Shown: one piece after another, positions 27,239-36,667 of the stretch
Layout of the letters: every line of letters begins with the position of its first letter
Position numbering within the stretch: position 1 is the stretch's first letter
Source: a virus
Reading direction: 5' to 3' (one strand)
Length of the DNA: 36,667 bases
Virus record (IMG/VR): IMGVR_UViG_3300009001_000031
Span: 1 to 36,667 of that record
Translations under genes and position numbers: made by a program
Notes under the pieces: model-generated
The model's database searches: none
What the model saw: only the letters and a program-made list of their open reading frames with translations
What the model was told of the DNA's origin: nothing

Positions 27239-29022
27239 TACATTCCAAATGCTTGAGCTAATGAAGGTGGTTGTCCACCTTGCATCTGTGCCATCTGCTG
27301 TTGTTGTATCATAGCCATTTGCTCAGGTGTCATCTGTGGCTCTTCAGGAGTGTAAAACTGTCTTAAAATATCAAGTACATTACCTGGATTTTCATATATA
27401 GCTATTGCAGCCATTGTTGCTTGCATATCACCCTGTGCTGACCTAGCAAGTATTGAATCATATAAAACAGTTTCTGCTTTATTTTTTCTAATACGTTCTT
27501 GTACCTTAGCTACATTTTCAAGACCATCAATATTATCTTGTAATGTTTCTATATCTATAACACCAGCTTGTAGTAACTGTAAACCAGTAACAATTTTTTG
27601 TGGCTCATCAAATCCTGCCATAACACCATAGATACGTCTTGTTCTATAATCTCCACCAATATCTACTAATGGTTGATAGTTTTCAGAAAATGCAGTACCG
27701 TTTAAATAACCTGCTATAGGTTTTTTAGTAATACCTGTTTGATAAGACATGATTGTATCCATCTCTAATCTTTTTGCATCCATCTCTGTTAAACCAACTT
27801 TAATTAATTCTCTATATTCATTAATCATTAATGACATTGTTGAGTTAAGTTCTGATAATCCTGCACCAGTAACAAAAGAGTTAGGTGACTGTGAGTCATC
27901 AGTAACTGGATAACCACCTACCATACGTAGTTGTCTTTCTAATCTATCGACTTGTTGGAACAACTGATACGGCATATTGTTTTGTGGTTTAGAAACTTGT
28001 GTACCTGGTGACAAATAGTTTACTGCAAATCTACCTTTTCGGTATTGTCCGCTCTCTATCTCACCTGATATGTTAGTTTCTGTAAAAACACTATCTTCCA
28101 TAGCTATTGCTGACATAATGTTTATTTTTGCCATCATAGCCATTAAACCTATTACGTGGTCATACTGACCTTTAAGTTGGTCAAAAGATACACGCTTAAC
28201 AAATACAAATGGAGGTGTGCTTAATGTATTAGGTATAAAATCTAATATTAAGTTTCTTTCAGGGAATATAATGTATGTTCCACCTTGGTCATAATACTCA
28301 ATAATCCTTACACCTTGAGAAGTATTATCCTCCCATTGTTGTTCACGATTAGTGTCATATGACATAAATGGTGTTGCATAGTCCTGATACTCTTGACCTG
28401 TATCATCTTCGTCATCTTGTTTTAAAATCTCTTTAGCAAACTCTGGATAGATTTGAGCTAGTTTATATCTAGGTACTCTACGTACAACAGCTAACTCTCT
28501 TGGTTTTTGGTCAGGTCCAAAGTTTCCTGGAAATGTATCATAAGGGTCTCTTAGTTCTGCTGATGGATAGTAATAACCGTTAGCATCTCTTTTTGTTGAA
28601 ATAACCCATGCACAGAAACCATAACCTGGTAACCACCTAGCAGCTTGTGCTAACTGTAAGTTAAGGTTTTGTTTTTCATCATAGCTAGTAACAATACGTT
28701 CTAGTTTTTCTGCACGATTTTTTGCTCTAGCAGAATCTACTTCATTAGGTACATCTACTCTTACTTGAGGTACACCTGAAATCTTTTGTGCAAGTCGGTC
28801 AATACCAGACTGCAACATGTTAGGAGCTGGTAATAAATCAGCATCTGAGGTTTCCATTGTGTCACCTAGTAATGCTTTAATACCATCAGGTCCACCATTT
28901 AAAATAGCTTTAATTCTAGATTTACTAACTTGTCTATCTTGTACGTTTTTACCAGATGTTAAGTTAGCAGCATTAGCTATAACTTCTTTATAATTTTTTA
29001 CATCTATGTTTTCTATTCCCAT
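27238..29022 (-). CDS. Portal protein
   Basis: 594 residues, in the normal size range for podovirus-type portals. It is encoded directly after the terminase with a ten-base overlap. Helical N-terminal region with GLxxN-like packing (MLQSGIDRLAQKISGVPQVR), then a clip/wing pattern including YGFCAWVISTKRD, ELRDPYDTFPGNFGPDQKPR and AVVRRVPRYKLAQIYPEF, a stem region (SAIAMEDSVFTETNI, then YPVTDDSQSPNSFVTGAGLS) and a Gln/Met-rich C-terminal tail (MAMIQQQQMAQMQGG). The portal is the twelve-fold DNA channel at one capsid vertex and docks the terminase and the adaptor. Family-level assignment rests on this pattern and gene order. Confidence 0.85.
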   Translation of the reverse strand: MGIENIDVKNYKEVIANAANLTSGKNVQDRQVSKSRIKAILNGGPDGIKALLGDTMETSDADLLPAPNMLQSGIDRLAQKISGVPQVRVDVPNEVDSARAKNRAEKLERIVTSYDEKQNLNLQLAQAARWLPGYGFCAWVISTKRDANGYYYPSAELRDPYDTFPGNFGPDQKPRELAVVRRVPRYKLAQIYPEFAKEILKQDDEDDTGQEYQDYATPFMSYDTNREQQWEDNTSQGVRIIEYYDQGGTYIIFPERNLILDFIPNTLSTPPFVFVKRVSFDQLKGQYDHVIGLMAMMAKINIMSAIAMEDSVFTETNISGEIESGQYRKGRFAVNYLSPGTQVSKPQNNMPYQLFQQVDRLERQLRMVGGYPVTDDSQSPNSFVTGAGLSELNSTMSLMINEYRELIKVGLTEMDAKRLEMDTIMSYQTGITKKPIAGYLNGTAFSENYQPLVDIGGDYRTRRIYGVMAGFDEPQKIVTGLQLLQAGVIDIETLQDNIDGLENVAKVQERIRKNKAETVLYDSILARSAQGDMQATMAAIAIYENPGNVLDILRQFYTPEEPQMTPEQMAMIQQQQMAQMQGGQPPSLAQAFGM

Positions 29023-30935
29023 GGTGCGTTGTTCATCTCCGTCATTTTGTACTCTCCATAACTAGGATTATAGTCTAAACCCATGTCCGCAGTATGCTCT
29101 TTTTGCATACGTCTAAAAACTTTCATAGGAAACCAACTAGCCATAACTATATCAGTTTTTTCCTTATTTCGCTTTGAAACAGGTTTACCATCAAAGTATA
29201 ACAGTTGTTGCCTATATTGCTGTACTTTTGCATTTGACACACCATCACCGACAGGTAAGTGTATACGTCTATCTTCAAATAAGTCTGCCATAGCACCTAC
29301 ACCATACAATGGGTCATGTTTGTTTTTACCTGTAAGATGTCCCTGTATAGTAATACCAGTACGTAAAGTAAATTCTTTTATACTTGCATCTTGTCTAATT
29401 GCAGACTGAAAACCGTTTTCCTCTACTATCCAATGTCTACAATCGTACTCGTGTAACCATACAGCTATTTGGTCAAGTGCAGCTCTGATACCTCCACCTT
29501 TTTTATTTTCTAAATCAACTAGGTATAACTCACCTTTGTATTGGTCTATACCCCAAAGTACTGCAGCTTGATAACCAGATGATGCAGGGTCAAGTCCAGC
29601 AACTAAATGTAAGTTCTGATACATCTGCCCCATAACTAAATCTGGTCGCATACATTGGTCAATAATGTTCATAGTAAATATTTGTGTACCTTCTATGTAT
29701 GCTTGGTTGTAATACACCATCTCGAATGTCTGTCTACCACCTGTAGATTCAGCAGAGTGCAACCTAGACATTAACCATTTGTAAGAACGTTTACTTGCCC
29801 ATAACATACAGTCTGTGTGATTTTCTTCTTCATGTTCTGGTATTGCACAATCTATAGCGTGTGCTGTTTCTACAATACTGGTAAAGTTATCTGCAGCTAG
29901 TAAATGATTATATAAATCATCAGGGTGCTGTCTTGAACCAATTACAACTACAGCTGTATGTTCCTCTTTACGACTAGATAATGTTGTAGTCCACCATTGT
30001 CTAGTACTTTCCCTAGCACCTGGTTGTTGTGTAGTTTGGTGGTCCTCAATGTCGTCAGCAATAATAATATCGCAGTCACGAGATAAAATCTTTCCACCTT
30101 TACCTACAGCTACCATTGTTGGTGATTTAATACCTGCAACAGTACGTGTACCTACAGTAAATTGATTCTGTGACCAGTTTTTACCTGACCTGTTATCTGG
30201 CTTAAAAGATGCACCTGGTGGACAAAAGTCCTCTCTAAGTTCTTCATTAGTATCTAGTACGTCAAGTACAGCAGATAATGCGTTTTTAGCTATATCTTCG
30301 TTTCCACCTACCCACATAATACGTGTATTGGGGTTCTTGCATATTTGATATACAGCAAAATGTATTAACAGTTCAGTCTTTCCATGTCGAGGGGGTGACA
30401 GTATTAATAACTCTTTACCGTTTTCTATACTATCAATAATGTTATTTATCCAGTTTATATGGAATGGAGCGGTTTCATACTTCTTACCTAGCTCGGTTCG
30501 AAAATAGCGTTGTCGGAAGTTAGAAAAATTTTCTAATGCACCCTTAGCATCTTCGGAGAGTTCCCAATCTTCTGCAGCTATAGCATTTCTACTGTCTATC
30601 TTGTAGGCAGCGAGCATGCGACTAACGGTAGCTGAAGTGCAACCAAGGAGGGAAGCCGCGTTGGCTACCGTTATGTCGCCTGTTGCAACCTGGTCAGCTA
30701 TTCCCTCACTTACGAAAGCTCGGTAATGCTGTCCTCGCCTAACTGAAGCGTAATCGCCCTCGTCAGACTTACGTTCTATATTAATAGGTTTTTGTTCAGC
30801 TTTCTTGTTATGTCTTGAATCTCTTGCAAACTGTCTCTTTTGGCACTTAGGGGAACAGAATTTACGTTTTTTACCTGTTAATCTTTTCCTACAGCCCTCT
30901 GCTATACAGATTACATTATGTGATGATTCGACCAT
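29013..30935 (-). CDS. terL: Terminase large subunit with N-terminal zinc finger and HTH
   Basis: 640 residues. Residues 10-31 hold a zinc-finger pattern, C10-x4-C15-x11-C27-x3-C31. Residues about 79-113 hold a helix-turn-helix (DITVANAASLLGCTSATVSR). The ATPase follows: Walker A at 180-188 (SPPRHGKTE), Walker B at 289-298 (DIIIADDIED) and a motif III-like VVVIGSRQHPDD at 329-340. The RNase H-like nuclease has Asp449 (GLDPASSG), Glu505/506 (WIVEENGF) and Asp595 (KTDIVMASWF). It pumps DNA into the capsid and cuts it. No separate small subunit gene is seen beside it, so the added N-terminal DNA-binding modules may supply that role. AGGAAG precedes the start, with a promoter upstream. Confidence 0.9.
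   Translation of the reverse strand: MVESSHNVICIAEGCRKRLTGKKRKFCSPKCQKRQFARDSRHNKKAEQKPINIERKSDEGDYASVRRGQHYRAFVSEGIADQVATGDITVANAASLLGCTSATVSRMLAAYKIDSRNAIAAEDWELSEDAKGALENFSNFRQRYFRTELGKKYETAPFHINWINNIIDSIENGKELLILSPPRHGKTELLIHFAVYQICKNPNTRIMWVGGNEDIAKNALSAVLDVLDTNEELREDFCPPGASFKPDNRSGKNWSQNQFTVGTRTVAGIKSPTMVAVGKGGKILSRDCDIIIADDIEDHQTTQQPGARESTRQWWTTTLSSRKEEHTAVVVIGSRQHPDDLYNHLLAADNFTSIVETAHAIDCAIPEHEEENHTDCMLWASKRSYKWLMSRLHSAESTGGRQTFEMVYYNQAYIEGTQIFTMNIIDQCMRPDLVMGQMYQNLHLVAGLDPASSGYQAAVLWGIDQYKGELYLVDLENKKGGGIRAALDQIAVWLHEYDCRHWIVEENGFQSAIRQDASIKEFTLRTGITIQGHLTGKNKHDPLYGVGAMADLFEDRRIHLPVGDGVSNAKVQQYRQQLLYFDGKPVSKRNKEKTDIVMASWFPMKVFRRMQKEHTADMGLDYNPSYGEYKMTEMNNAPWE
30623..30673. repeat. 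Ten-base inverted repeat inside the terminase HTH coding segment
   Basis: TAACGGTAGC (30623-30632) and GCTACCGTTA (30664-30673) are perfect inverted copies 31 bases apart. They lie in a segment of clearly higher G+C than the rest of the gene. Packaging sites of many phages lie in or near the DNA-recognition part of the terminase genes, so this could be a pac-type site, but the codons alone may also explain it. Confidence 0.5.
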
Positions 30936-30972
30936 AAAAAACTATCTTCCTGTAGATGTTTGCGTAGTGCTA

Positions 30973-31001
30973 ATTATATGGTATAGTCCTGTTAATTACA
31001 A
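30973..31001 (-). promoter_or_regulatory. Promoter for the terminase/virion genes
   Basis: On the leftward strand TTGTAA (31001-30996) and a perfect TATAAT (30978-30973) are 17 bases apart, a good sigma-70-type match. The start would be near 30966, about 30 bases before the terminase ATG. On the other strand the same DNA holds TTGCGT and TATAGT (30982-30987), a weaker possible rightward promoter, so the site may be divergent. Confidence 0.6.
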
Positions 31002-31047
31002 ACATCAAACACAAGTAATTTGTTACAGGTGAAGTTGCAATCGGGAT

Positions 31048-31165
31048 GCAGAAAGCTGCTGACTGGCGAGACAGTACACTAGAAAGACAAAGGCAGTACC
31101 CAAGGACATTAGAAACTGTTTGATTAGCTTCCAATAACACTAATGCCCGCTCACGTCCAAATGCC
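31048..31165 (+). ncRNA. Candidate structured RNA upstream of the terminase
   Basis: This segment is GC-richer than its surroundings and holds ordered hairpins: GCAG-AAAG-CTGC (31048-31059), ACTG-GCGAGA-CAGT (31062-31075), then a nested set GGCA/TGCC (31092-31095 with 31162-31165), GGAC/GTCC (31104-31107 with 31155-31158) and ATTAG/CTAAT (31108-31112 with 31140-31144). Stems are short and the strand is uncertain. A leftward frame without a start codon also crosses it. Treat as a candidate only. Confidence 0.3.
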
Positions 31166-31244
31166 TTATACTGACTGGGTTTTTACTGTATAAAATTACC
31201 AGAATATATTTCTAGACTTACGTATGTATAGAAGAACATCTAGA

Positions 31245-31273
31245 TTGACATATGTAGGTCATATGACTATACA
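31245..31273 (+). promoter_or_regulatory. Rightward promoter in the control region
   Basis: A perfect TTGACA -35 box (31245-31250), a 17-base spacer and TATACA (31268-31273) as -10 box. The promoter lies on the left arm of the first long palindrome, with a predicted start near 31280, and would drive the early-type genes from 31595. Confidence 0.6.
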
Positions 31274-31360
31274 GATACAGTTATTCATAGCTAGTAGATA
31301 CATAATTATCTGTACAGAGTAAGTCTTCTGTATCTGTATAGACATAAATGTCCTACATAT
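31250..31360. repeat. Long imperfect palindrome 1 (control region)
   Basis: Perfect 14-base arms CTATACAGATACAG (31267-31280) and CTGTATCTGTATAG (31328-31341) are extended outward by CATA/TATG and by ATATGTAGG (31250-31258) with CCTACATAT (31352-31360), about 27 paired positions in all around a 47-base centre. The centre has its own AGATA/TATCT hairpin. It lies in noncoding AT-rich DNA between divergent gene sets. It may be an origin, a regulatory site or an RNA hairpin. Confidence 0.8.
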
Positions 31361-31386
31361 TACTATATATAAATTTAAATACAGAG

Positions 31387-31492
31387 GTATGGTAGTTTAA
31401 TGATGTGCCTTGATACTGTATGTAAGTCATAGATATATATACACCTAGTAATAAGTCCAATAGTGATATCAAGGTACATATTACTACCGTAC
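31387..31492. repeat. Long imperfect palindrome 2 (control region)
   Basis: GTATGGTAGT (31387-31396) pairs with ACTACCGTAC (31483-31492), and GTGCCTTGATA (31405-31415) with TATCAAGGTAC (31467-31477); each has one G-U type difference, which suggests pairing is kept at RNA or cruciform level. The 51-base centre is AT-rich. It begins 26 bases after palindrome 1. A ten-base direct repeat TGTCCTACAT at 31349 and 31519 flanks this palindrome. Confidence 0.8.
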
Positions 31493-31527
31493 ATCTGCTA
31501 TCCCCTTCACCCTCTGATTGTCCTACA

Positions 31528-31553
31528 TGTCCCCTGTACCTGCGGAGGGGACA
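31528..31553 (+). terminator. GC-rich hairpin before the first early gene
   Basis: TGTCCCCT and AGGGGACA form a perfect eight-base-pair stem with a ten-base loop (GTACCTGCGG), followed by a pyrimidine-rich tract (CTCCGTCTCTTTCTTTT). It lies about 40 bases before the ATG at 31595, so it could be an attenuator or an mRNA-stabilising 5' hairpin. No gene lies between 30936 and 31594. Confidence 0.55.
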
Positions 31554-31594
31554 CTCCGTCTCTTTCTTTTATCTATAAATTGATTGGAGATATA

Positions 31595-31861
31595 ATGGAA
31601 CTAGATGAAATTATGACTGTTGATACTGCAGTAGATACAGAGGGAGCTAAAGATACTGCGACTGAAACACAAGTAGATAGTAAAACATTTACTTGTAATG
31701 CGGATAATCATGAGGGTGATAGACAAGTGAAACTTGGCTTTAACTTTCGTGAGCAACGCTCTAAGAAAGAAGGGGATAGTTACAAGAACTATGAGTTCTG
31801 GTATAGAAACTTATGCAAGCCTTGTGGACAAAATCTACTTCTTGAGGCTCAAAAAGCCTAA
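31595..31861 (+). CDS. Small zinc-binding-type protein (88 aa)
   Basis: The start is the ATG at 31595, with GGAGA four bases upstream; the longer frame from 31463 covers the palindrome region and reads as noncoding. The N-terminal 30 residues are acidic and Thr-rich and look disordered. The C-terminal half has Cys34 (FTCNADNH) and a CKPC knuckle near the end, a plausible zinc site, around aromatic residues (YKNYEFWYRNL). First gene of the rightward early-type set; a strong terminator follows it. Function unknown. Confidence 0.7.
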   Translation: MELDEIMTVDTAVDTEGAKDTATETQVDSKTFTCNADNHEGDRQVKLGFNFREQRSKKEGDSYKNYEFWYRNLCKPCGQNLLLEAQKA

Positions 31862-31870
31862 TTTATATAT

Positions 31871-31913
31871 ACAGTATGTCTGGTACTCAATGTGCCAGAC
31901 TACTGTTTTTTTT
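31871..31913 (+). terminator. Strong intrinsic terminator
   Basis: ACAGTA-T-GTCTGG and CCAGACTACTGT form a 12-base-pair stem with one bulged T and an 11-base loop, followed by eight T residues (31906-31913). This is a textbook rho-independent terminator for the rightward transcript of the preceding gene. Genes after it would need read-through or their own promoter. Confidence 0.9.
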
Positions 31914-34651: not shown

Positions 34652-34946
34652 CGGTATGCGTCCAGCTATTCCACCAGAACCAAACCAATACAGAAAAGGT
34701 AAACAACCTACGCTGTTAACGGATGATAAAGTTAGAGTACTTCTAGCTAATCCAAACGAATGGTTCATTATCGGTGAAAAAGATAAGTGGATTAGTGGCG
34801 TTAAAGCAAATATTGAGTCCATGACTCAAGCAAACATTTCACACTTACGTGACAAAGGTAAGTTTGAAATACAACAAAGAAAAAATAAAAATGATGTTAT
34901 TGACATTTACTGTCGATACATCCCTATAAATAAGGAGATACTATGA
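34641..34946 (+). CDS. Hypothetical protein (101 aa)
   Basis: Starts MMPNGMRPAIPPEPNQYRKG after AAGGAG; the first or second Met could be used. A disordered Pro-rich N-terminus is followed by a compact alpha/beta body (VRVLLANPNEWFIIGEKDKW). Later it is basic (FEIQQRKNKNDVIDIYCRYI). It overlaps both neighbours, and the position before the AAA+ gene suggests a shared transcript. No family recognised. Confidence 0.65.
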   Translation: MMPNGMRPAIPPEPNQYRKGKQPTLLTDDKVRVLLANPNEWFIIGEKDKWISGVKANIESMTQANISHLRDKGKFEIQQRKNKNDVIDIYCRYIPINKEIL

Positions 34947-35656
34947 GCAATGAAAATTGTTGGGAACTAATAGAAAAAGTACTAGGTAGAAGTCGTAGAG
35001 TTTTACTCTTCGGTCCTCCAGGTACAGGTAAAACATATAGTGCAGTTAAGCAAAATGCACCATACGATACAAATGGTGACGAAGTTGTTTACCAAATCAC
35101 TATGACAGAAGATACAGCAGCAGCCAACTTAGAAGGTTTTTACAAACCAGCTAAAGATGGTGGATTTGAATGGCATGACGGTATTGCTATTCAAGCATGG
35201 CGTAACGGTGGTAGATTGGTTATCAATGAGATAGACCATGCATCACCAGATGCTATGACATTCCTACACGCTATTCTTGATGACCAAGATATAGCTATGT
35301 TGACATTGAATAACGATACAAAGGAGACAGTTAAACCAGCTGAAGGCTTTCAAGTCGTAGCTACAACTAACAGTCCACCAGAGTCATTACCTTTGGCTTT
35401 GAAAGACAGATTTCCTGTAAAAATATATGTTGACACAATACACCCTAAAGCCATGGAAAAATTTCCAGATGAGTGGCATGGTGTTATCAATGACACAACA
35501 TTAGTAGAAGATGATGAGGAACGTATCTCAGTACGTGCATGGACAGAGTTCTTTGCACTACAAGAGAAAGGTTTCACACCTGAAATAGCAGCCAAGCTAA
35601 TCTTTGCAGACAAAGCAGAAGAGCTTATAGATGCTGTTACATTAGCTCGTGCCTAA
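34943..35656 (+). CDS. MoxR/CobS-type AAA+ ATPase
   Basis: 237 residues with a complete AAA+ core: Walker A at 24-31 (GPPGTGKT), Walker B at 91-98 (RLVINEID), sensor 1 Asn in ATTNSP (around 143) and a Leu-Lys-Asp-Arg-Phe segment carrying the putative arginine finger (Arg156). The pattern is that of the AAA_5 / MoxR branch, in which ring ATPases act with a VWA-domain protein to remodel a target. The next gene is such a partner by position and motif. The match to cobalt-chelatase CobS is at family level only; chelation is not implied. ATGA overlap with the preceding stop. Confidence 0.85.
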   Translation: MSNENCWELIEKVLGRSRRVLLFGPPGTGKTYSAVKQNAPYDTNGDEVVYQITMTEDTAAANLEGFYKPAKDGGFEWHDGIAIQAWRNGGRLVINEIDHASPDAMTFLHAILDDQDIAMLTLNNDTKETVKPAEGFQVVATTNSPPESLPLALKDRFPVKIYVDTIHPKAMEKFPDEWHGVINDTTLVEDDEERISVRAWTEFFALQEKGFTPEIAAKLIFADKAEELIDAVTLARA

Positions 35657-36667
35657 CAGTAAAGCTTATCCGTATCCAGAGATTGTTACTGGTGAGAAAT
35701 GGGAAGTAGTAGGTACTGTTAACAACAGTCCCGAAGGTTCTACAGATAATCTCAACAGACAAATGACAGTCCCACTCGACAGAGAGTGTGAGGAATGTGG
35801 TATCAACCATAGTCGTATGATACGTAGACATGAACTTGGTCATGCCAAGTGGAGTCCTAAAACTATGGGTAAGCTAAAACCTGGTGTACGTGCAGAGGCT
35901 GTTCATGTACTAGAAGAAGTTAGAATTAACCATCTTTTATACGAGAACAAGCTTGCATTATCTGAACCTTCACAGTGTTTAGATATGATACAACAGAAAG
36001 CTAACAAACTAGTTTATGAATCAGGTATTGCAGAAATAATACTTATGGGTCTAGCTAGTAGGTGGAGAGTACCAGACAATGATGCTAACCGTAGATATGC
36101 TAGTTACAAATACAATGATGAATGGGTTGTTATGTCATCAGCTATGAACATGATTCATAATGATGATACTGTTACTGAATATCGTAAAAACCAAATTCAT
36201 TATGCACAAAAAGTTATTATGATGTACTATCAAAATATAACTAATCATGGCCATGGTCAAACTATTAGCTATCGTAAAGTACAAAAGTATGCAGAACCAT
36301 TAAGTGCAATACTTGACATGTTCAGGGATGCACCTACACAAGATGAAATATACAAACCTAAACCAAAACCTAATACCGCACCTGGTATGAGTGAAAGTGA
36401 AGGTGAGTCAGAGGAATCTAATGAGCTAGGCGGTGGTTCTTTAGAACAACGTACTAGAAATGATTTGGCTGACATGTTGTATCAAAGTACTCAAGGTATA
36501 GGTAAATGGGGTGAAATGTTTATACATCAACCTCCATTAACTGTTAACCTGCAAGGTAGACTTAAAGGTGGTAGAGCATATAGACCAGCTGACTTTGGTT
36601 ACAATCCTAAATACATTAACAGATACTGTGTAGATAAAAAGATATTCAAACAAAAGATGACACAACT
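35649..36667 (+). CDS. Metallopeptidase-like / VWA-type partner of the AAA+ ATPase, 3' end cut
   Basis: The frame is open from a GTG at 35649, overlapping the ATPase stop by eight bases, to the window end (339 codons visible). Near residues 47-50 is a CEEC pair and at 61-65 a HELGH (HExxH) motif in MIRRHELGHAKW, followed by VLEEVRINHLL with acidic residues that could complete a metal site. This resembles the putative metallopeptidase domain that precedes a VWA domain in the partners of MoxR ATPases (DUF2201 type). A Pro/Lys then acidic linker follows (around 240-265); the VWA domain itself would lie beyond the window. No GTG-specific evidence beyond the overlap is present. Confidence 0.7.
   Translation, partial: MPNSKAYPYPEIVTGEKWEVVGTVNNSPEGSTDNLNRQMTVPLDRECEECGINHSRMIRRHELGHAKWSPKTMGKLKPGVRAEAVHVLEEVRINHLLYENKLALSEPSQCLDMIQQKANKLVYESGIAEIILMGLASRWRVPDNDANRRYASYKYNDEWVVMSSAMNMIHNDDTVTEYRKNQIHYAQKVIMMYYQNITNHGHGQTISYRKVQKYAEPLSAILDMFRDAPTQDEIYKPKPKPNTAPGMSESEGESEESNELGGGSLEQRTRNDLADMLYQSTQGIGKWGEMFIHQPPLTVNLQGRLKGGRAYRPADFGYNPKYINRYCVDKKIFKQKMTQ

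Follow-up and report, generated by a model that had tools for sequence, protein, structure and literature searches.

Palindrome-bearing replication origins combine AT-rich, palindromic DNA with flanking repeats. In phage phi29, the pRNA, which is encoded near the packaging genes and relies on pseudoknot or loop pairing, forms an RNA ring on the packaging motor. ROOL and GOLLD (and OLE) are described in PMC12286853 as large ornate phage RNAs of unknown function, and the manA and wcaG motifs in PMC2864571 as structured RNAs of marine metagenomes and phages. The locus compared here with these systems is the gap between the leftward virion genes and the rightward early genes of a viral record. It probably constitutes the early-gene control region of a marine phage family, in which the gene of a structured RNA, named R1, would be accompanied by an early promoter, a fast-evolving palindrome and an attenuator. 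R1 is the most solid new element of this region, and the palindrome is a second, stranger feature.

The window, that is, the whole stretch of DNA analysed, corresponds to IMG/VR record IMGVR_UViG_3300009001_000031 (36,667 bases). Part of its right end is probably missing, since the terminal gene runs off the record and relatives extend up to about 43 kb. The gap is bounded by the terminase large subunit gene (29013-30935, minus strand; phrog_38, E 1.2e-68; PF05876, E 8.2e-6) and by the first early gene (31595-31861, plus strand), which encodes 88 aa without a family match. Among isolated phages, the best terminase matches are those of Streptomyces phages (24-27% identity), and the major capsid protein is 26-29% identical to those of Mycobacterium and other actinobacterial phages; a DNA-level search among isolated phages found no relatives of the record. 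From these distant terminase and capsid matches, an actinobacterial host can be guessed. Inspection of the terminase translation by eye shows that the protein is extended at its N terminus by a part that contains cysteine pairs and a stretch resembling a helix-turn-helix, which would suit a fused small-subunit function. Elsewhere in the window, a strong terminator-like hairpin with a T-run lies directly 3' of the first early gene (31878-31900), and 2178-2495 encodes a short phage protein that matches the SET domain (PF00856, E 9.7e-9). The stretch 34943-36665 carries an AAA (MoxR-like) ATPase gene and then a second gene, whose product presumably belongs to a protein type that has a VWA-like domain.

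Relatives were collected by a terminase search of viral contigs (261 related stretches, 80 retained), by a search with a conserved DNA pattern (at least 119 stretches) and, for a more distant clade, through that clade's own terminase (80 further loci). R1 was matched at 186 loci; the 88 unique sequences with enough flank were used for column covariation, and the 57 of these below 96% identity formed the set for the structure test. The palindrome was studied at 60 of the 186 loci, chosen for enough flank and made non-redundant by shared 8-mers. Its slot was defined as the 150 bases that follow the conserved motif TTGACA...GTCA; in the 10 relatives without a match to this pattern, a fixed offset served instead. 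Contig L084 (PAEL01000115.1), placed in a gammaproteobacterial MAG, is a phage of the window's family.

When 62 upstream regions (the window plus 61 relatives) are aligned, a block at approximately 30940-31200 is conserved far above the palindromes, and the ten-base blocks across 31016-31105 are mostly 0.79-0.98 identical to the window. This is the strongest element of the region, and the preliminary description had missed it. As read from aligned sequences, the plus strand of 31000-31152 encodes a structured RNA with a pseudoknot, with fold, strand and conservation all borne out. The covarying columns of the 88 unique sequences form a nested set of Watson-Crick pairs. The modelled core, which draws on covariation and on distant relatives, comprises 33 pairs in eight helices: an outer stem (31004-31010/31118-31124), a hairpin (31036-31039/31047-31050), a pseudoknot (31042-31045/31146-31149) and helices at 31022-31024/31105-31107, 31028-31031/31097-31100, 31056-31060/31092-31096, 31062-31065/31072-31075 and 31079-31080/31085-31086. 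Across the 57 sequences, 99.3% of 1881 cells are paired, with double-sided change at 17 pairs and in 203 cells. The structure scores 0.339 versus 0.133 in shuffles, a value that none of 500 shuffles reaches, and slid versions of it stay at or below 0.039, at least eightfold lower. Four of five measures beat all 500 shuffles, the exception being the number of further pair types (19/500). RNAalifold, run without the supplied structure, returned 23 pairs, 14 of them compensated. On the plus strand, the pair cells contain 178 G-U and 2 A-C combinations; a DNA palindrome or a minus-strand RNA would not yield such counts, which assigns R1 to the plus strand as RNA. Furthermore, many of the unpaired bases are invariant.

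The properties of R1 are those of a structured noncoding RNA: the pairs covary on one strand with G-U tolerated, and a coding signature is lacking. Substitution is flat by codon phase (0.137/0.147/0.125), and the reading frame is interrupted by an internal stop in 28 of 57 rows and is out of frame in 8 of 57. A small open reading frame noted by eye within R1 (ATG at 31046, about 25 codons) is ruled out by the same stops and flat codon phase. A single long RNA running from R1 through both palindromes was likewise rejected, as RNAalifold shows almost no structure at 31138-31215. Upstream of R1, a promoter-like site read from the sequence, TTGCGT-16-TATAGT with an extended -10 (TGn), occupies 30960-30987 on the plus strand and would set the predicted start; TGnTATAGT precedes R1 in 47 of 60 relatives. 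A second promoter-like site, TTGTAA-17-TATAAT (30973-31001, minus strand), faces the terminase and is a consensus match only, the count of such sites in the region being no more than in shuffles. Around the terminase leader, inspection of the alignment by eye shows an inverted repeat at 30941-30971 that reads TCACTA...TAGTGA or TGTCTA...TAGACA depending on the relative; it is possibly compensated and could serve as an operator or form a hairpin in the leader.

The R1 model, built from the 57 window-clade sequences alone, matches 45 of 79 loci of the distant clade, with E-values between 1.8e-28 and 8.6e-10; every match lies opposite the terminase strand. In the resulting alignment, 93.5% of the pair cells are kept and 233 double changes are found versus 73 in shuffles, with the reservation that these rows were fitted to the model, so that the alignment favours the model structure. 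Two measures do not beat the shuffles there (double-change pairs, 151/500; pair types, 53/500). The pseudoknot had been left out of the model, and its test in the distant clade is therefore unbiased by the fit. Its loop and 3' partner read CGGAC/GTCCG in 18 of the 45 distant-clade rows by our own count, and CGGGA/GCCCG also occurs among these rows. CAGGC/GCCTG is present in 2 aligned rows, with GCCTG also visible in the raw sequence of L264 and L222; CGGGC/GCCCG is found in L208 and, in the first, window-clade set, CGAG/CTCG in L145. By eye, the pairing needs one bulged base in 11 distant-clade rows and one tail is cut. At the level of the alignments, the pseudoknot is thus compensated several times.

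In 18 distant-clade loci measured, R1 lies 149 to 2252 bases from the terminase, which indicates that it is not simply a terminase leader. It is present as a single copy in all 13 records searched, and a profile scan found it once in 186 of 188 sequences. A pattern scan of cellular genome contigs gave one match, a phage contig inside a MAG, and among 299 genomes of the same phylum R1 was found in 1, the very same MAG. Collectively, the marine phage contigs with R1 are abundant and number in the hundreds.

The preliminary description had placed two adjacent long palindromes in this gap, and both are real: palindrome A (31250-31360, 111 nt) and palindrome B (31387-31492, 106 nt) have the lengths given there and are separated by 26 bases. 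The direct repeat TGTCCTACAT also occurs as reported, at 31349 and 31519. The main arms of palindrome A (31262-31280/31328-31346, 19 nt) are 95% complementary and its outer arms (31241-31262/31348-31369) are 77% complementary over 22 nt, with 25 Watson-Crick positions in a gapless count and 29 in a strict search with gaps. It is the sole gapless stem in the window that scores at least 13, while 30 intergenic shuffles reach at most 11. On either strand, no other hairpin window of the record ranks above it (GC-regressed z -4.9 and -5.0). Palindrome B pairs at 22 Watson-Crick and 5 G-U positions, and its windows rank high on the plus strand only; its left end contains a copy of the TATGGTAGT motif, which in relatives flanks palindrome A on both sides. 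Folding of 31200-31590 (391 nt) gives z values of -5.3 as RNA and -5.6 as DNA, with 0 of 100 shuffles reaching either. A consensus -35 box had also been placed on an arm of the first palindrome; TTGACA is present, but at 31245-31250, where it abuts the arm of palindrome A. A TATACA hexamer follows 17 nt later, at 31268-31273, inside that arm.

A palindrome recurs after the promoter motif in the relatives, although the sequence of its arms is not conserved; the conservation that the preliminary description had named as a check is thus largely borne out for the feature itself. According to a strict inverted-repeat score, 42 of the 60 slots exceed 99% of their shuffles and 22 exceed all 1800, whereas 18 fail the test; among the controls, 1 of 224 terminase windows and 8 of 60 early windows pass the 99% level. 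The mean fold z of the slot is -4.9 on the plus and -4.8 on the minus strand, with 75% and 73% of the values below -3, compared with 2% and 11% for terminase coding windows on the two strands. In this fold survey, the boundary of the second window falls within palindrome B; by the strict score, the slot of B exceeds 99% of shuffles in 13 of 60 relatives. A looser stem score, by which 60 of 60 slots had stems of 40-50 pairs, was dropped because shuffles average 38; 31 of 60 lie above their own shuffles. Between clades, the arm sequences are unrelated and turn over fast. In close relatives the two arms change jointly: 31 slot pairs are changed on both sides with pairing kept versus 3.2 expected, against 35 versus 34.5 in the terminase control. 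These changes were counted in sequence pairs of 86-98.5% identity in which sequences recur, so the ratio should be read as indicative and does not give a probability. A wider identity range is noisier (824 compensated versus 273 expected, with many single changes). The motif TAT[GA][GC]?TAG[TG] occurs in at least two copies within +215 to +480 in 39 of 60 relatives, versus 2 of 55 for a control stretch, and the copies are mostly 130-137 bases apart, a spacing that indicates that the motif brackets the palindrome. A palindrome kept by position while its letters are replaced is an unusual case.

The promoter-like site TTGACA-17-TATACA (31245-31273, plus strand) is the predicted early promoter, and its conserved motif continues through the spacer to GTCA; this motif is present in 50 of 60 relatives. 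The -10 element is poorly conserved in the window's clade, its match averaging 3.7 of 6 positions versus 3.25 at control offsets. A general promoter scan returned no more sites than in shuffles, and the TTGACA-17-TATACA site was not among its matches. In this clade, palindrome A starts inside the promoter, and a transcript from it would consequently lack much of the left arm. The distant clade carries a -10-like box, mostly TGCTATAAT (extended -10), followed about 7 nt on by a hairpin, GACACTTA...TAAGTGTC, in 16 of 18 unique sequences, with another hairpin in L207 and L208. The arrangement of an early promoter followed by an inverted repeat thereby extends beyond the window's clade.

Downstream of the palindromes, an antiterminator-like hairpin, TGTCCCC...GGGGACA (31528-31553, plus strand), shares an arm with a terminator-like hairpin that has a T-rich tail (31544-31566, plus strand). 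Terminator-like sites on this strand number 4 versus 0.3 expected, two of them overlapping at 31542-31566. Both hairpins fold in 9 of 12 distinct window-clade sequences, with arms that differ yet match (compensation judged by eye); in the remaining three, L007, L122 and L191, the search pattern did not find the pair. The preliminary description had proposed, as one option, a twin RNA-hairpin switch for the early promoter. Palindrome A does not behave as an RNA fold, as detailed below, but an attenuator-like pair does lie downstream, at 31528-31566. As a separate observation, perfect hairpins of 9-15 bp stand directly before the ribosome-binding sites of several early genes in L195/L196, L198/L199 and L201/L202 (G003, G004, G007); some have a common asymmetric centre (TTCCGAC, for example), and a role in processing or stability is possible.

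In the arrangement we favour, the R1 gene with its own promoter would be followed rightward by the early promoter, the attenuator and the first early gene. The start region of the early promoter would be occupied by a long inverted repeat, palindrome A and in the window also B. R1 would be a small RNA in its own right and would act either in trans or on the early leader. The palindrome would act as DNA, forming a hairpin or cruciform with an influence on opening or escape at the early promoter, and the attenuator would set read-through into the early genes. Alternatively, R1 might be a riboswitch-like regulatory leader of the early operon, and its place upstream of, and co-directional with, the early genes, its invariant unpaired bases and the pseudoknot partner at its 3' end are consistent with that role. 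This is possible, if on the improbable side, because a separate promoter-like motif lies between R1 and the early genes in the 50 relatives mentioned and also in the distant clade, and because the first early gene is not the same among relatives, where leaders vary. As to the palindromes, the significant slot stems contain 959 Watson-Crick, 11 G-U and 22 A-C cells (G-U versus A-C, p 0.08), and the distant-clade hairpin 19 G-U versus 13 A-C (p 0.38), far from the ratio in R1. An RNA fold would be expected to show the preference for G-U that R1 shows and the slot stems lack; this makes it more likely that palindrome A is kept, or remade, as a symmetry at the DNA level. The G-U/A-C contrast on the same DNA offers a practical means of separating RNA folds from DNA palindromes when working from raw sequence. 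The same counts, together with the overlap of the window-clade stem with the promoter itself, render it rather doubtful that the palindromes serve as leader hairpins in the early messenger RNA, for stability, processing or antitermination. That role would nevertheless suit the start of the distant-clade hairpin about 7 nt after a clear -10 box, the hairpins before the ribosome sites of early genes in relatives, and the hairpins at early junctions, which are commoner on the plus strand (50% versus 20% below z -3). The palindrome could also be functionless, left behind by template switching at a site where the fork stalls (against an R1 transcript or a promoter complex, for example), which would repeatedly copy one arm onto the other. 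Nearly pure Watson-Crick arms, joint arm change and fast sequence turnover agree with such an origin of the repeat, but the slot persists across many lineages despite the general instability of long palindromes (review PMC7999016), and we regard this explanation as unlikely.

The other option put forward earlier, a replication origin or initiator-binding site, found no positive support. Such an origin would consist of palindromes A and B together with R1, the palindrome being extruded or bound by an initiator so that replication starts there. The region shares with palindrome-bearing origins the AT-rich composition, the palindromes and the flanking direct repeat, TAT[GA][GC]?TAG[TG], of the 39 relatives. 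The cumulative GC skew, suggested as a check, does have its minimum and turn at this region. In four 43-kb relatives rotated at R1, however, the opposite turn lies at +10.9 to +12.0 kb, at the convergence of rightward with leftward genes, and not at a terminus half a genome away; the skew thus follows transcription and provides no evidence for an origin. No DnaA-box match occurs within +200 to +520 of the R1 start in five of five genomes, and no initiator, helicase or polymerase was recognised among the genes scanned, which were part of the gene set. The region differs from known palindrome-bearing origins in these respects, and also in its arms, which offer no common sequence for an initiator to read across clades. 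On balance, an origin of this kind is quite unlikely. In one 43-kb relative (G001), a phosphoesterase-type exonuclease (phrog_284) is encoded beside a Rad52-like annealing protein (phrog_3290) at about +7.4 to +9.3 kb from R1, and a palindrome-cutting nuclease of this type would be an attractive partner for the palindrome. An RNA-primed start, in which a transcript from the R1 promoter continues into the palindrome, is trapped as an R-loop by the extruded palindrome and is then extended by host enzymes, would suit a phage with these two proteins and without a recognised initiator, helicase or polymerase, yet it seems very improbable.

Compared with described systems, the early-gene control region we favour combines familiar and unfamiliar traits. 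The hairpins at 31528-31566 resemble transcription attenuators in that they would form a mutually exclusive terminator and antiterminator with a common arm, and differ from known examples in that no leader peptide or ligand was identified. R1 is similar to the phi29 pRNA in being a phage RNA near packaging genes with pseudoknot or loop pairing; unlike it, R1 accompanies a terminase of another type (phrog_38) and lies up to 2.25 kb from the terminase in distant relatives. No description of R1 was found in the literature on phage structured RNAs near terminase or on ornate phage RNAs, nor of the element in that on long early-promoter palindromes and Actinomarina phages, most subscription journals being outside the coverage of both searches. 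An Rfam search of the full window gave 0 matches at the gathering threshold, and a permissive search of 30936-31600 gave only matches far below the gathering score (E 0.2-3.6). The manA and wcaG motifs (PMC2864571) share with R1 the occurrence as structured RNAs in marine metagenomes and phages; they lie in 5' UTRs of metabolic genes, whereas R1 lies between the terminase and the early genes and matches no Rfam model. With ROOL and GOLLD (and OLE; PMC12286853), R1 has in common that it is phage-encoded, structured, pseudoknotted and found by covariation. It differs from ROOL and GOLLD in its core of about 152 nt, its place in an early control region, the absence of tRNA from the window and the lack of an Rfam match; ROOL and GOLLD are frequently found close to tRNA islands. 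By its aligned sequences, R1 resembles other phage structured RNAs of unknown role while belonging to no Rfam family tested, and this strongly covarying element would represent a new RNA class open to direct test.
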